DNA of 64,000 bases. Source: Candidatus Fermentithermobacillaceae bacterium. Its GTDB lineage: Bacteria > Bacillota > Sulfobacillia > Fermentithermobacillales > DUSS01. The notes beneath the pieces were generated by a model that did no database searches, had not been told where the DNA came from, and saw only the letters and a list, made by a program, of their open reading frames with translations. Location: positions 1-64,000 of the forward strand of contig DYEQ01000031.1 in the NCBI GenBank assembly GCA_020725645.1. Direction: 5' to 3'. The first letter of the stretch is position 1, and each line of letters opens with the position of its first letter. A program made the position numbers and the translations under genes. Of this stretch, positions 25,226-30,928 are shown piece by piece.

Positions 25226-26667
25226 TTGCCCACACCCACCTTAACGCGGCGGAATCTTGCGGGGCTCGCCCCGTGCCCGACATGGGCGACCTGTCCGGGC
25301 TCACCCTTGCCGCAATTGGGAAGCCCCCAGAGTTCCCACTCGTCTTTCCCGGCGATGGCATCGCAGGACCGCCAAAACTCATAGGTGATCCCCGTGTACG
25401 TCGGATTCTTCAGCATGGCACCGAGGGAACCGTCTTTGATCTCCCAAGCGATCTCGGTTCCAAACTGGAAGTTAAGACGCTTGTCGTCAATGGACCAGGA
25501 CTTGTTCGTCGCCACCAAAATCCCGTCTTTCGTGTCCTTGATCATCTCATCGAGAGTCCAGTCCCCCGGCTCGAGGCTGATATTGGTCATGCGGATGATG
25601 GGTATCCTGTTCCAGCCGTCCGCCCTCATCGCTCCGTTGGAGACCTGCCCCAACTCGTGGGCGGTTTCCCGCGACGTGAGGTAGTTCTTAAAGATGCCCT
25701 TATCGACGATGGTGACGCGCTGGGCGGGAACCCCCTCGTCATCGAAGCCGAAGCTTCCGAGACCTCCCGGCAGCGTGGCATCAGCAGTTATGGTAACCTC
25801 TTCCGACCCATACTGGAAAGTTCCGAGCTTTTCAGTAGTGAGAAAACTGGTCCCGGCGAAGCTTGCCTCCTGTCCGAACACCCGGTCGAGTTCAATGGGG
25901 TGGCCGCAGGATTCGTGAATCTGAAGGGCAAGCTGGCTCGAATCTATGATGAGATCCATGACTCCGCTCGGGCACTGCTTGGCGGAGAGAAGTTCCACGG
26001 CCTCCCGGGATACCCTCTCGGCGTGGTCAAGGAGCTTCATCTTCTCGACTATCTCGTATCCGGCCGTAGCCCAATTGCCTCCAAAAGAAGTGGGATACGA
26101 ACGACGCTGGAGTTCGCCCCGGTCAGCTGCGGTAGCTTCAATGCCCGCTCCCGTTTCGACCTTGGTTTGCTCGATGTAACTACCCTCGGTGGATGCGAAG
26201 ATCTTGTCCTCGCGCTGGCAGGCCATGCTTCCTATACGCACTTTCACTTCTTTACGGTCGGCCATGAGCTTGTCAGCTTCGAGCAAGAGGGCGACCTTGT
26301 CCTCCGTCTTGACCGAAAATGGATCGATCTTCACCGGCGATGTCCACCTGGACACCACCGGTTTCACGGGGGATAGTACCACGTCTTTATCCCTTTTCAC
26401 GGTAGCCGAAGCTTTGGCTATTTCCACCGCTTCTCTGGCAACCTTGACTACCTCGTCCTCGGTTAGAGTGGAGCTGGATGAAAACCCCCACGCGCCATCG
26501 TAAAGAGCTCGAATTCCAAACCCCTTCGACCGGGAAGAACTGAGCGCATCTACGTTTCCGTTTTTCGTCCTGATCGTCTGCGTTCTGGTCTCCACGATCC
26601 TGATATCGCCGTAAGACGCTCCGAGCTCCTTCAGTACATCGAGGGCCTTTTGGGTAAGCTCCTTCAC
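25219..26667 (-). CDS. TldD-type metalloprotease subunit (second pair)
   Basis: This 482-residue catalytic subunit has zinc motif HESCGH at 251-256, followed by PIELDRVFGQEASFAG. That motif and the C-terminal PNCGKGEPGQVAHVGHGASPARF differ from the first TldD (HEAFGH), so the two pairs belong to different branches. I chose GTG at 26665-26667, eight bases after AAGGAGGTG; the longer TTG start overlaps that SD. Expression starts from the 360-base divergent region shared with the XPB helicase. Confidence 0.9.
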   Translation of the reverse strand: MKELTQKALDVLKELGASYGDIRIVETRTQTIRTKNGNVDALSSSRSKGFGIRALYDGAWGFSSSSTLTEDEVVKVAREAVEIAKASATVKRDKDVVLSPVKPVVSRWTSPVKIDPFSVKTEDKVALLLEADKLMADRKEVKVRIGSMACQREDKIFASTEGSYIEQTKVETGAGIEATAADRGELQRRSYPTSFGGNWATAGYEIVEKMKLLDHAERVSREAVELLSAKQCPSGVMDLIIDSSQLALQIHESCGHPIELDRVFGQEASFAGTSFLTTEKLGTFQYGSEEVTITADATLPGGLGSFGFDDEGVPAQRVTIVDKGIFKNYLTSRETAHELGQVSNGAMRADGWNRIPIIRMTNISLEPGDWTLDEMIKDTKDGILVATNKSWSIDDKRLNFQFGTEIAWEIKDGSLGAMLKNPTYTGITYEFWRSCDAIAGKDEWELWGLPNCGKGEPGQVAHVGHGASPARFRRVKVGVGKW

Positions 26668-27030
26668 CCTTTCACACCTCCTTTTCAAGTTTTTGGCAGG
26701 TACCCGCGCTTATGTACATGAGCGTAGGTTTTCGCGGCAGCACGCGGCGGAACGTCATGCACGCGCGCGCAAGGTACCTGTAGTTAGCTGCATAACCGTA
26801 TTATTCTCTTCTCCTTGCGGCATTCCTCCTTGGCAAGCTCAAATCCTACGTATTCCGAAGTATTTGACGAAAAACAGGACTTTTGAGACTAAACGACGAA
26901 TGATCGTGAATTTAAGGCGGTTTTTGAGGGCGACGTGGTGCAACGTTAACCGTTGAAGCGGCGGCAAGCCCGGTACAACGGAGCATTTATAGCTAAGCAT
27001 TCATAAAAGAACTCAGCGGGAGGAATGTAC
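26668..27030. promoter_or_regulatory. Divergent promoter region between tldD-like gene and XPB helicase
   Basis: About 360 bases without a gene. An inverted repeat CAGGTACC (26697-26704) / GGTACCTG (26773-26780) brackets a GC-alternating stretch (CGCGCGCGC) in the leader of the second tldD. On the plus strand TTGACG near 26868 is a possible -35 element for the helicase genes, but the -10 partner is weak. Towards the helicase, GGGAGG serves as the SD. No riboswitch class is recognised. Confidence 0.4.
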
Positions 27031-28797
27031 TTGGCTTCACCTCTTCCAGCGGTGGTCCAGAGCGACGGGACGGTCTTTCTAGAGGTGCATAACCCCCTCT
27101 TCGAGAGAGCCAGGGATTGCTTCATGAGGTTTTCGGACCTGGTGAAGAGTCCCGAGCACGTGTACACTTACAGGATATCACCTCTGTCCTTGTGGAACGC
27201 AGCTGCCTGCGGCCTTGGTGCGGAACAGATAATCCGCGACATGGAGGCGTTCTCCAGATACTCCGTTCCCGAAAGCGTAAAGGACATGATCCGAACCACC
27301 GTGGAGAGGTACGGGATTCTGAAGATATCCATGCAAGACGGGAATCTCGTCCTTTCTTCAACAGATCCCATGGTGTTCCTGGAAGTCACCTCCAGCGAAA
27401 GACTCGCCCCTTACATAGAGGCGAAACACCGGGAAAACACGGTCATCCTCAAGCCCAATTGCAGGGGACTCGTCAAACAAGCTCTCATCAAGATGGGATA
27501 TCCCGCTGAGGATCTGGCCGGTTACGTTGACGGCGACCCCCTTGAGGTCCGTCTTCGGAATGTGACCAGACGCGGCGTCCCGTTTTCCCTCCGTCCGTAT
27601 CAAATTGAGGCGTCCAACGCGTTTTACGCGGGCGGGCACCCCGCGGGAGGTAGCGGGGTGATCGTGCTCCCCTGTGGAGCTGGAAAGACCGTAGTTGGGC
27701 TCGACGTCATGGCCAAACTCTGCACACAGACCCTGATCCTCACCACCAATGTGGTAGCTTTGCGCCAGTGGATAGACGAGATCCTGGACAAGACGGACCT
27801 CAAGGAAGACCAGATCGCCGAGTACAGCGGCGAAAAGAAAGAACTGGCCCCGGTTACGGTCAGCACCTATCAAATGCTTACTTACAGGAAGAGAGGCGCC
27901 GTCCAATACCCTCACTTCTCCATATTCAACGAACGGAACTGGGGACTTATCATTTACGATGAGGTGCACCTTTTGCCCGCTCCCGTTTTCCGGATAACCG
28001 CCGACCTTCAAGCTAAGAGAAGGCTCGGCCTTACAGCAACCCTTCTGAGAGAAGATGGCAGGGAGGACGACGTTTTTTCCCTCATAGGCCCGAAGAAGTT
28101 CGATAAGCCGTGGAAGGAACTGGAGGCCGAGAGCTGGATCGCACAGGCGGAATGTCATGAAATCAGAGTCGATCTCGACCAGAAAGACAGACTCGAATAC
28201 GCGCTGGCCTGCGAAAAGGAAAAGTACAGGGTGGCCGCGGTGAATCGACGCAAGCTCCCGGTGGTGAGGGCGATAGTGGAAGCTTTGCGGGACGAAAGGA
28301 TTCTCATCATTGGGCAATACATCGACCAGCTTTCGGAGGTCGCCTCGATGCTGGGTGCTCCGTTCGTTTCGGGGCAGGCCCGCAACTCGGAGCGCCAGGC
28401 GCTTTACGACGCCTTCAAGCGGGGCGAGCTGAAGGTGCTGGTAGCTTCGAAGATAGCTAACTTCGCGGTGGATATTCCCGAAGCCAGCGTGGCGATCCAG
28501 ATCTCCGGAACGTTCGGTTCCCGGCAGGAAGAAGCGCAGCGCCTGGGGAGGATCCTTAGGCCGAAGTCTTCGGGAAGACCGGCGCGGTTTTACTCCATCG
28601 TATCCAGAAACACGAAGGAGCAATTATTCGCCCAGCACAGGCAGCTTTTCCTGACGGAACAGGGCTACAGATACACGATTTGGGAAGAAAACGCGTTCAT
28701 ACAGGCCATCACGAAAACTCCCACCGGAGACGCTCCGCGCGCGTCCAGCTCCTCGGACGTCTTGACGAATACCGGTGGAAACGCGCCGGGGAGGTGA
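27031..28797 (+). CDS. XPB-type superfamily 2 DNA helicase
   Basis: This 588-residue protein resembles bacterial and archaeal XPB, a 3'-5' helicase of nucleotide excision repair. After an N-terminal domain of about 185 residues, motif I reads PCGAGKT (about 213-219), motif II DEVH, and motif III TATL, which runs directly into the XPB-specific RED motif (LLREDGRED). Motif VI is QRLGRILRP. I prefer the TTG at 27031, which lies seven bases after GGGAGGA; the ATG at 27025 is too close to that SD. A long partner gene follows after 7 bases. Role in repair or in transcription coupling is inferred from family only. Confidence 0.9.
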   Translation: MASPLPAVVQSDGTVFLEVHNPLFERARDCFMRFSDLVKSPEHVYTYRISPLSLWNAAACGLGAEQIIRDMEAFSRYSVPESVKDMIRTTVERYGILKISMQDGNLVLSSTDPMVFLEVTSSERLAPYIEAKHRENTVILKPNCRGLVKQALIKMGYPAEDLAGYVDGDPLEVRLRNVTRRGVPFSLRPYQIEASNAFYAGGHPAGGSGVIVLPCGAGKTVVGLDVMAKLCTQTLILTTNVVALRQWIDEILDKTDLKEDQIAEYSGEKKELAPVTVSTYQMLTYRKRGAVQYPHFSIFNERNWGLIIYDEVHLLPAPVFRITADLQAKRRLGLTATLLREDGREDDVFSLIGPKKFDKPWKELEAESWIAQAECHEIRVDLDQKDRLEYALACEKEKYRVAAVNRRKLPVVRAIVEALRDERILIIGQYIDQLSEVASMLGAPFVSGQARNSERQALYDAFKRGELKVLVASKIANFAVDIPEASVAIQISGTFGSRQEEAQRLGRILRPKSSGRPARFYSIVSRNTKEQLFAQHRQLFLTEQGYRYTIWEENAFIQAITKTPTGDAPRASSSSDVLTNTGGNAPGR

Positions 28798-28804
28798 CGT
28801 ATTT

Positions 28805-30583
28805 TTGAACCTCCGCGAGTCCCTTTCTTCTCTGCCCCCGGAGAGGCTCGAGGAAATCGCAGCTTTTTACGGCCTTAGGGTTTGCGAGGAAGTTCAAAGT
28901 AATACGTTCCGGGCGGGCGAGTCAGGCTTATCCGGCGATCCGCGTGTACCGGGTGAGCGCGGCGTCCCTGATGGGCATTTCTCCGAGCTGGTCATGAAAA
29001 TCACAAGACACCTCCTTGTCCCGGCTAATCTCATGGTCGTGGTAAAGGGACTTGACGAAGAAGAACTCACAGCCGTACGGCTCATCACCTTGAGCCGGAA
29101 CGGGGCAGGTGTTGTGATGGAACAGTGTCATCAGCGCCTGAACCAGATCTCGAGAAAGTGGCGGCGAAACGGGGCCAGGGTGATCGAGGGACTTCTTAAA
29201 CGCGGACTCGTTTTCACGGAAAAACAGGGTTACCGCCAGGCCTACTACGTACCGGAGGACTTGAGGTCGATTCTTACCGGCTGGTTTCTCGAAGAGCTAT
29301 ATGCTCAGGCGATGCAACCCGATCCGCCGGGTCGCCATTTTTCCGATCCCAATGCCTGCCTCAGGCACGTGTTTCTGTTTCTGTCGTACGTGCGAAAGAA
29401 CGGGTGTAAGCTCACCCAGAACGGCACTCTGTTCAAAAGAACCCAACAGGAGCTGGAAGTCTTCTTGGGTGGGGACGAAACCGTGGACGACGCCCTGTTC
29501 CCGGTGAGATATCCGCCCCGCCTGGCCTTTATCGTGTTCTTCGCCAAGTCGCGGGCTCTGGTTAAAGAGCAAGACAGCATGCTCGTCCTCGGACCGAAGG
29601 CTGCTGAGTGGAGGGCTCAAGACGTCAAGGCCCTGCGCCAAGACTTGTTTGACTACTGGGTGCAAACGTTCATGGCCCACGATGCGGACCTTACCACCCT
29701 GTTCTGGATAATGATGCGCTCTCCGGAAGGTTCGTGGCTTTCCCTGGAAAGCTTGCTCGGGCAAATGGAAAACCTCACTTTAAACCAAGCCCCCAACGGA
29801 TTCAGCATCAGAGCCGAGAAGAACCTGGTGGGCGATCTGGAATACCTGGGTGTCCTGGACGTGTCGAGGAGTTTCGGTAGCACTTCGGTCAGGGTGACTC
29901 CCCTTGGTCGAGCTCTGGTTGGCCTCGGTCCCTGGCCTGAAGAAAAGTTCGAAGATAAGATTTACGTGGAACCTAACTTCGAAGTGATGGTGCCATGCGG
30001 CATCCACCCGGCGGTCCTGTGGGACATCGATTTCGTGGCGGACCTGGTCCGGGCCGACCAGATGATGATATTCAAACTCAGCCGCTCCTCCGTATACCGG
30101 GCCGTCCAGCATGGAATCGACCCGTCTTCCATGGTGCGTTTTCTCCAGGCACGTGCGGGATCGGCTTTGCCCCAAAACGTCGCATACAGCATCGCCCACT
30201 GGGCGGGCGCCTACGGGCGCGTCGAGCTCATCGACGCCCTCATCATCAAATGCGATAGCCCGGAACTGGCCGATGAACTGTCCGTTTCAAGGAAGCTCGG
30301 GCCGTACGTGATCGAGCGTCTCGGCCCCCTCTGCCTCAGGATCGACAGATCGGCCTTTGCCGAGGTGTCACGAGCTCTCGTGGATGAAGGATACATGCCG
30401 AAGATTCCGGAAGAGCTCCGGGCATCACGCGAGGTCGCGTTCCTCAGAGAACACGAGAGGTCTGGCGACGGGCAGAAACCGCCCCTCTCTCCTGGACTTT
30501 CTGTCTATGGCGACGACCGCGCCGAAAGAGAAGGCGAGTCCGAGCAGGGCGAAAAGGCCGGTCAGGAACCCGGGGCTTTCTAA
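28805..30583 (+). CDS. XPB-partner protein with helicase XPB/Ssl2-like N-terminal domain
   Basis: This 592-residue protein follows the XPB helicase in the same operon. Its second half (from about residue 370, KIYVEPNFEVMVPCGIHPAVLWDI) resembles the PF13625 'helicase XPB/Ssl2 N-terminal' domain found in stand-alone proteins. It has no ATPase motifs, so it is probably a structural or DNA-binding partner of the helicase. TTG at 28805 is nine bases after GGGAGGTG. The C-terminal about 50 residues are acidic, low in complexity and encoded antisense to rseC. The first third (residues 1-130) includes a winged-helix-like stretch. Partnership is inferred from adjacency. Confidence 0.75.
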   Translation: MNLRESLSSLPPERLEEIAAFYGLRVCEEVQSNTFRAGESGLSGDPRVPGERGVPDGHFSELVMKITRHLLVPANLMVVVKGLDEEELTAVRLITLSRNGAGVVMEQCHQRLNQISRKWRRNGARVIEGLLKRGLVFTEKQGYRQAYYVPEDLRSILTGWFLEELYAQAMQPDPPGRHFSDPNACLRHVFLFLSYVRKNGCKLTQNGTLFKRTQQELEVFLGGDETVDDALFPVRYPPRLAFIVFFAKSRALVKEQDSMLVLGPKAAEWRAQDVKALRQDLFDYWVQTFMAHDADLTTLFWIMMRSPEGSWLSLESLLGQMENLTLNQAPNGFSIRAEKNLVGDLEYLGVLDVSRSFGSTSVRVTPLGRALVGLGPWPEEKFEDKIYVEPNFEVMVPCGIHPAVLWDIDFVADLVRADQMMIFKLSRSSVYRAVQHGIDPSSMVRFLQARAGSALPQNVAYSIAHWAGAYGRVELIDALIIKCDSPELADELSVSRKLGPYVIERLGPLCLRIDRSAFAEVSRALVDEGYMPKIPEELRASREVAFLREHERSGDGQKPPLSPGLSVYGDDRAEREGESEQGEKAGQEPGAF

Positions 30584-30865
30584 AAGAGTCCCTAGACCGT
30601 ATCCCGCCAGTCCGGCCGCTCCTGCTCCCAGAAGAGGCATTATGTACATGAGAAAACTGAGGGTTAAAAAGTCCCTATCCCGGAGCTCGAGTTCGACAAC
30701 GTCCCCGACTTTCATGGTTCCAGCAGGTCTCGCTTCCACGATAAGGGTGGGATTGGCAAGGGAAAAATGACCGCACCTTCCGCACCGGCCGCATTGCTCA
30801 GTCCGTCTGACCTCTACCTCGACCAGCCCGTTCCGAAAACCGACCACCTTACCAGTTTCCTTCAC
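30425..30865 (-). CDS. rseC: RseC/SoxR-reducing family membrane protein
   Basis: This 146-residue protein of the RseC/MucC family has an N-terminal cytoplasmic domain with a cysteine motif (CGRCGRC at about 25-31) and two transmembrane segments (about 71-90 and 97-117). In Proteobacteria RseC works with Rnf-like electron transfer on SoxR; in Firmicutes it occurs near rnf genes or, as here, near shape genes. An Rnf operon lies 10 kb away. GTG at 30865 follows GAGGGAG. Its last 53 codons overlap the opposite-strand XPB partner gene. Confidence 0.85.
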   Translation of the reverse strand: MKETGKVVGFRNGLVEVEVRRTEQCGRCGRCGHFSLANPTLIVEARPAGTMKVGDVVELELRDRDFLTLSFLMYIMPLLGAGAAGLAGYGLGTLLESPGFLTGLFALLGLAFSFGAVVAIDRKSRREGRFLPVARPLVFSEERDLA

Positions 30866-30928
30866 GGCGCGTTCTCTCCCTCGTCAAATATACTTCATTC
30901 GCCCGTTTGAACCCAACCTGAAGGACTG

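Follow-up and report, generated by a model that had tools for sequence, protein, structure and literature searches.

The window analysed here is a stretch of 64,000 nucleotides (nt) from the 2.1 Mb draft genome of Candidatus Fermentithermobacillaceae bacterium (Bacillota; GenBank assembly GCA_020725645.1, contig DYEQ01000031.1, positions 1 to 64,000). The genes under study, both on the plus strand, encode an XPB helicase and, 7 bases downstream, a partner protein that is built like p52, the subunit that docks and regulates XPB in the transcription and repair complex TFIIH of humans and other eukaryotes, with a winged-helix N-terminal part, an MD1-like part, a clutch and a p8-type C-terminal domain (CTD), as shown by sequence or by structure prediction (Table 1).

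The XPB product scored 830 bits against NF045503 (cut-off 610), which places it among the bacterial XPB proteins, and also matched ERCC3_RAD25_C, ResIII and Helicase_C; its motifs are GAGKT (residue 216), DEVH (310), RED (340/344) and QRLGRILR (503). The TTG at 27031 has a GGGAGG ribosome site 7 nt upstream, and an ATG at 27025 was disfavoured as the start because it leaves no room for this site. In 200 shuffled-base copies of the region the longest open frame averaged 146 codons with a maximum of 253, and the partner has homologues of 16–85% identity over the alignment; because of its length of 592 amino acids (aa) and these conserved homologues it was not taken for a chance frame. The strings GAGKT, DEVH, RED and QRLGRILR were all absent from the partner, and no ATPase or nuclease family was found in Pfam or NCBIfam at E ≤ 1. 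An earlier sequence-only reading of the locus had described an XPB with the RED motif, followed after 7 bases by a 592-residue protein with an XPB-N-like domain and without an ATPase or obvious nuclease motif, and this description was confirmed by the gene calls, motifs and family searches.

Sequence and predicted fold of the partner

The partner matched PF13625 at 71 bits (cut-off 34.2), and at E ≤ 0.001 this family was found in two proteins of the genome, XPB and the partner, and in no others. Pfam at E ≤ 1 gave nothing beyond PF13625 and a weak Tfb2 match, and the NCBIfam matches were to two XPB models, weakly and over the N-terminal part of the models only. Using hhalign, partner residues 387–532 were aligned end to end with XPB residues 8–159 (probability 97.9, E 3.6e-13), so that the partner's clutch, like that of p52, is a homologue of the XPB N-terminal domain (NTD). 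Judged from sequence, the first 160 residues of XPB recur in divergent form as partner residues 387–532, a single module present in two copies.

A 12-row partner profile run against PDB sequences matched XPB at 3.7e-5 and human p52 at 2.7e-4. With the family profile A3 (36 members, run against 177,635 PDB sequences), TFIIH XPB, p52/Tfb2 and Tfb5/p8 filled the first 18 places, with E-values from 3e-8 for XPB, 3.1e-5 for Chaetomium p52, 7e-5 for human p52, 2.4e-4 for yeast Tfb2 and 0.043–0.058, weak taken alone, for Tfb5; the alignments to Chaetomium and yeast p52 began well ahead of the clutch. A profile of the CTD only (24 rows) placed five Tfb5 sequences first in the PDB (E 0.0026–0.0037), and in sixth place 6trs_D (0.097), which is labelled uncharacterized and is by inference the p8 of the p52-p8 crystal. 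The Pfam Tfb2 model was matched at E ≤ 0.01 (best 5.8e-6) by 13 of the 36 family members, the window partner included; the window XPB gave no Pfam Tfb2 match at E ≤ 1.

The structure model, made from a 36-sequence alignment, had a mean predicted local distance difference test score (pLDDT) of 84.3 and a predicted template modelling score (pTM) of 0.78. Its elements were interpreted as winged-helix units to residue 364, the clutch at about 384–470, a strand-strand-helix-strand-strand-helix domain at 472–532 and disorder at 540–589. At E ≤ 1e-3, 40 of 40 PDB matches of the model in Foldseek were chains of TFIIH entries. The Foldseek table gives entry titles; chains of 264–461 residues were assigned to p52/Tfb2 and chains of 574–653 residues to XPB, in agreement with the molecule names in the PDB sequence searches where the same chains recur. 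The best p52 match covered 558 columns with an E-value of 8e-13. The chain 6tru_D, which represents the N-terminal half of p52 and lacks the clutch, was matched at 9.4e-4, just before the first chain outside TFIIH entries. VIA superposed 6tru_D on model residues 169–373 (Z 9.0, root-mean-square deviation (rmsd) 3.6 Å over 149 residues), p52 chains at Z 7.8–10.5 with alignments starting at model residue 62–88 in most rows, and the XPB NTD plus DRD at Z 9.8 (2.8 Å over 156 residues). The p52 domain order NTD, MD1, clutch, CTD was thus found in the model and fold searches, the NTD and MD1 by fold alone.

Table 1. Features of the XPB-partner locus in the window, and the small protein of Deinococcus plasmid loci
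Feature	Coordinates	Strand	Details
XPB helicase	27031..28797	+	588 aa, TTG start, TGA end
XPB N-terminal domain and DRD-like domain (aa 8-160)	27052..27510	+	PF13625; hhalign to partner clutch and CTD
Partner ribosome binding site GGAGG	28790..28794	+	within XPB 3′ end; from sequence
p52-like partner	28805..30583	+	592 aa, TTG start, TAA end
Partner aa 56-168, N-terminal winged-helix domain	28970..29308	+	model; p52 NTD-like by fold, also like generic winged helices
Partner aa 169-373, pair of winged-helix-like units with a match to p52 MD1	29309..29923	+	Foldseek and VIA to 6tru_D
Partner aa 384-470, clutch domain (PF13625), predicted pairing with XPB N-terminal domain	29954..30214	+	Pfam, profiles, hhalign
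Partner aa 472-532, C-terminal domain, p8/Tfb5-type pattern	30218..30400	+	CTD-only profile
Partner aa 540-592, disordered tail	30422..30580	+	pLDDT <50 at 540-589; mostly antisense to convergent open reading frame (ORF) 30425-30865
Deinococcus small CTD-like (p8-like) protein	L091:5741-6040, L094:6238-6567, L095:6234-6581		overlaps partner start by 4 bases

Distribution and genomic setting

Among 348 genomes of the phylum, XPB exceeded the cut-off in 23, and a partner distinct from XPB was present in 23 of these 23, directly downstream in 21 (among them G104, where contig ends break up the XPB gene), directly upstream in one (G228) and on another contig in one (G051). A partner match was found in 4 of the 325 genomes without XPB over the cut-off (G043, G245, G270 and G358); the Fisher p value of 3e-32 for 23/23 vs 4/325 is too small because the genomes are related. 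The G043 match is a short remnant in which a stretch with the XPB DEVH motif (by eye) and part of a partner CTD are joined in one frame, the G245 partner adjoins an XPB piece close to a contig end, and the G270 partner adjoins a divergent XPB of 365 bits. Another divergent XPB, of 397 bits in G045, has an adjacent 388-aa partner that was found with a larger profile after being missed by the first search, and the XPB-like matches of G310 and G364 are weaker, at 166 and 136 bits. At class level, in a test that took in 15 of 24 same-class genomes, XPB exceeded the cut-off in 7/7 genomes with the partner vs 0/8 without; the two genes of G024 are on separate contigs. In 22 loci from named assemblies, which overlap the other genome set, XPB is immediately upstream of the partner in 19; it lies 3 kb downstream in L051 and is not within the locus stretch covered in L049 and L054. 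The commonest junction among the relatives is a 4-base overlap (11/22 loci with a set partner start).

Several variant forms were observed. The divergent XPB genes of G045 and G270 are followed by short partners (L118:2436-3599 and L105:1157-2389, ORFs of 388 and 411 aa) that match in the clutch region and have no CTD match, as does the 429-aa orphan partner-like gene of G358 (L120:7330-8616). Four genomes of one family (6.4–7.3 Mb) have a second, standalone protein of about 362–404 aa far from XPB (L102:1139-2350 in G105, L103:1378-2463 in G061, L084:1459-2589 in G369 and G256:C1:1696450-1697166), whose match to the partner profile is confined to the profile's N-terminal part, without clutch or CTD. 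The partner of G114 (L099:133-2079; L064 in A3) has a C-terminal WYL domain (2.5e-15), which was matched by 2 of the 36 members of A3. WYL domains occur in bacterial DNA-damage regulators.

Other phyla were sampled through PLSDB plasmid records only, where 30 matches, 11 of them bacterial, were obtained and 10 of the bacterial ones, from four phyla, were examined (Actinomyces, Nonomuraea, Nocardia, Arthrobacter, Tsukamurella, Gloeocapsopsis, three Deinococcus and Paenibacillus, the last belonging to the Bacillota). A partner was near XPB in all 10, at gaps of up to 4.7 kb and in varying gene order and strand; nine were called by profile and one (Tsukamurella) by annotation alone, and those of Nonomuraea and Nocardia were seen only in a stretch wider than the first 4 kb on each side. 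The proteins annotated "Helicase-associated domain-containing protein" near XPB in Actinomyces, Tsukamurella, Deinococcus and Paenibacillus belong to the same family by profile (for Tsukamurella by annotation only) and are longer than the window partner, at about 657–847 aa. One haloarchaeal plasmid record had an XPB with no partner within 4 kb. Co-occurrence and adjacency, the latter named as a test by the sequence-only reading, were conserved both in the Bacillota and in these records.

In three of three Deinococcus records a separate protein of 99–115 aa, resembling the partner CTD, is encoded between XPB and the partner, an arrangement that recalls TFIIH p8/Tfb5 (TTDA) beside p52. The small proteins matched the Bacillota CTD profile at E 0.002–0.026 among 1,366 ORFs and a profile including Deinococcus partners at 1.5e-10 to 7.9e-8; on their own they gave no Tfb5/TFIIH match in the PDB, and the one of the three searched against Pfam matched no family. 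Actinomyces also has a 99-aa protein between the two genes, by eye unlike those of Deinococcus. No separate p8-like gene was found in the window's genome, where the other CTD-profile match lay inside XPB (E 0.14).

In 13 of the 22 loci (L035, L037-L039, L041, L043, L044, L047, L048 and L051-L054) the pair has a divergent pcrA-like gene nearby, and in 7 a tldD-like gene, the remaining 2 being cut off upstream. PcrA identity was checked on fragments of 3 of the 13, for which TIGR01073 was the best match at 554–577 bits, below its full-length cut-off. The pcrA-like neighbour also occurs in L051 and L054, where XPB does not adjoin the partner. The divergent neighbour in the window is tldD-like, not pcrA, and the flanking genes there (tldD-like, rodA-like) look like housekeeping genes, with synteny in close relatives. 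The convergent ORF at 30425-30865 encodes a Cys-rich membrane protein (RseC-like by eye) and its end overlaps the partner 3′ end antisense by 159 bases; L051 has a similar convergent ORF after its partner (L051:6363-6773). The SOS box CGAACNNNNGTTCG, allowing ≤2 mismatches, had 32 matches in the window vs 39.7 expected and none at 25889-29908, and a promoter scan of 26500-30900 gave a single minus-strand site (30667) vs 1.6 expected.

Probable relation to TFIIH and proposed action

The two genes are probably the bacterial equivalent of the TFIIH arm formed by XPB and p52, comprising an XPB motor and a p52-like regulator, and the partner is very likely a distant homologue or analogue of p52. 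Its likeness to p52 (GTF2H4)/Tfb2 lies in the domain order by predicted fold, the clutch with the fold of the XPB NTD, the p8-type CTD, whose profile ranks Tfb5 first in the PDB, and the constant association with XPB; it differs in having 7–16% identity in structural alignments and in lying below the Pfam cut-off. The sequence-only reading had proposed a two-part repair or transcription-linked machine. Since adjacency is conserved and the predicted structure is related, by Foldseek and VIA, to a known XPB partner, TFIIH p52, the two-part machine is well supported, with p52 and not the archaeal nuclease Bax1 as the known counterpart; the suggested part in repair or in a transcription-linked process is plausible.

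Several results weigh against this reading. The Tfb2 (PF03849) match of the partner, 20.7 bits, did not reach the gathering cut-off of 34.5, and 23 of the 36 family members had no Tfb2 match at E ≤ 0.01. When the N-terminal part alone was searched with a 36-row profile against the PDB and Pfam, no p52 was found and the matches were weak generic winged helices and others at chance level; the sequence case for p52 is therefore carried by the clutch and CTD, and the remainder is fold evidence. The first winged helix was unspecific, with ORC2, CED-4 and plant ADR1/resistosome chains at Z 7.4–9.3 in VIA. Whole-chain superposition on p52 was poor (TM-score 0.18–0.42, rmsd 12–25 Å in Foldseek) because domain orientations differ; p52 itself is described as flexible in a passage of PMC7708078. 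A partner-like gene occurs in G358, where no XPB exceeds the cut-off. For a co-fold, XPB and partner of G200, chosen because the genes are in the same frame there and in different frames here, were folded as a single chain with the intervening stop codons read as serine. Alignments A5-A9 were made (A5 set partner rows on the XPB N-terminus, A6 was without XPB-only rows, A7 had XPB cores only, and A9, with partner rows trimmed, gave no improvement over A8). A8, which was judged usable and had some scattered partner residues in XPB columns, was folded with a pTM of 0.52 and no confident arrangement, and therefore no interface can be claimed.

In one alternative explanation the partner is unrelated to p52 by descent, a duplicated XPB N-terminal module having been joined to generic bacterial winged helices, with the likeness to p52 convergent. 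Such an origin would account for a sequence signal that sits in the clutch and CTD, common to XPB, and for an N-terminal part that finds no p52 by sequence and whose first winged helix resembles many others. It is nevertheless unlikely: p52 has the same domain order, clutch-less 6tru_D was matched over 149 residues at 3.6 Å, the p52 sequences of Chaetomium and yeast were aligned with the profile from well ahead of the clutch onwards, and Tfb2 was matched by 13 of the 36 family members and not by the window XPB. The winged-helix domains, and the WYL domain of some family members, would also suit a protein that binds DNA as a transcription regulator or damage sensor and is encoded in one operon with XPB without binding it, which is rather improbable given that the clutch duplicates the docking domain of XPB itself and that the partner gene is seldom without XPB in the genomes searched.

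A helicase-nuclease pair of the archaeal type, in which XPB likewise works with a dedicated partner, the nuclease Bax1 (passages of PMC7672443), appears highly improbable. Bax1 grips the thumb and HD2 of XPB, according to a section of PMC13024598, whereas the window partner had no nuclease match in Pfam or NCBIfam up to E 1 and its PDB sequence matches included no chain named Bax1 up to E 10; Bax1 was also not among the Foldseek and VIA fold matches listed, such absence being no proof. An anti-phage defence module is an equally remote prospect, the XPB motor weakly resembling defence-system helicases such as PbeA (6e-25) but the partner matching 0 PADLOC families at E ≤ 0.1 and having no match in 50,697 phage records or in a single viral-contig scan, with flanking genes that are housekeeping-like and syntenic in close relatives.

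For the counterpart of the XPB-p52 arm, TFIIH provides the model of action. Parts of PMC6422496 describe the p52 clutch and the XPB NTD as sharing a fold and forming a pseudo-symmetric dimer, with the p52 CTD binding p8, and parts of PMC7708078 report a common fold for p8 and the p52 CTD; by passages of both, eukaryotic p52 recruits XPB via the clutch, and p52/p8 activate the XPB ATPase and limit its speed. By homology, the partner is likely to be the regulatory subunit of XPB. Its clutch and the XPB N-terminal domain would form a pseudo-symmetric dimer, and its CTD would lie on the second motor domain of XPB, at the site of p52-CTD and p8 in TFIIH, so that the pair would form a cradle in which XPB is made competent for ATP hydrolysis with its rate capped. 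The winged-helix part would hold DNA or another factor, and the complex would open duplex DNA or twist it, with repair as the most likely setting.

The pair would most likely be used in DNA repair or opening. PcrA/UvrD acts in bacterial repair, and repair is therefore favoured by the pcrA-like neighbour; that excision repair is the main use is a tentative proposal, with the chances slightly below even. Action at promoters or at a stalled polymerase instead is possible.

According to a passage of a 2026 review (PMC13024598), XPB function in archaea and bacteria is still elusive. In the open-access literature no paper was found that names a bacterial p52, and the sole printed statement found on the matter is that bacteria have no p52; subscription papers and preprints lay outside this scope, and an earlier report elsewhere is possible. 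We lean, by a modest degree, towards the view that the XPB arm of TFIIH (XPB, p52 and p8) is an ancient prokaryotic module still in bacterial use, in which a clutch and p8-type motif was duplicated into the XPB N-terminus and the p52 C-terminus, with the p8-type domain also standing alone in the Deinococcus operon, and that XPB and p52 were already a pair when eukaryotic TFIIH was assembled around them. Provided that the partner is p52-like, the bacterial XPB purified in a 2012 study was studied without its regulator, and the missing regulator could explain why the purified protein needed a large molar excess over DNA in order to work. Two bacterial proteins could then serve to study the p52 switch on XPB, which is relevant to human disease, and the finding would bear on the evolution of TFIIH.

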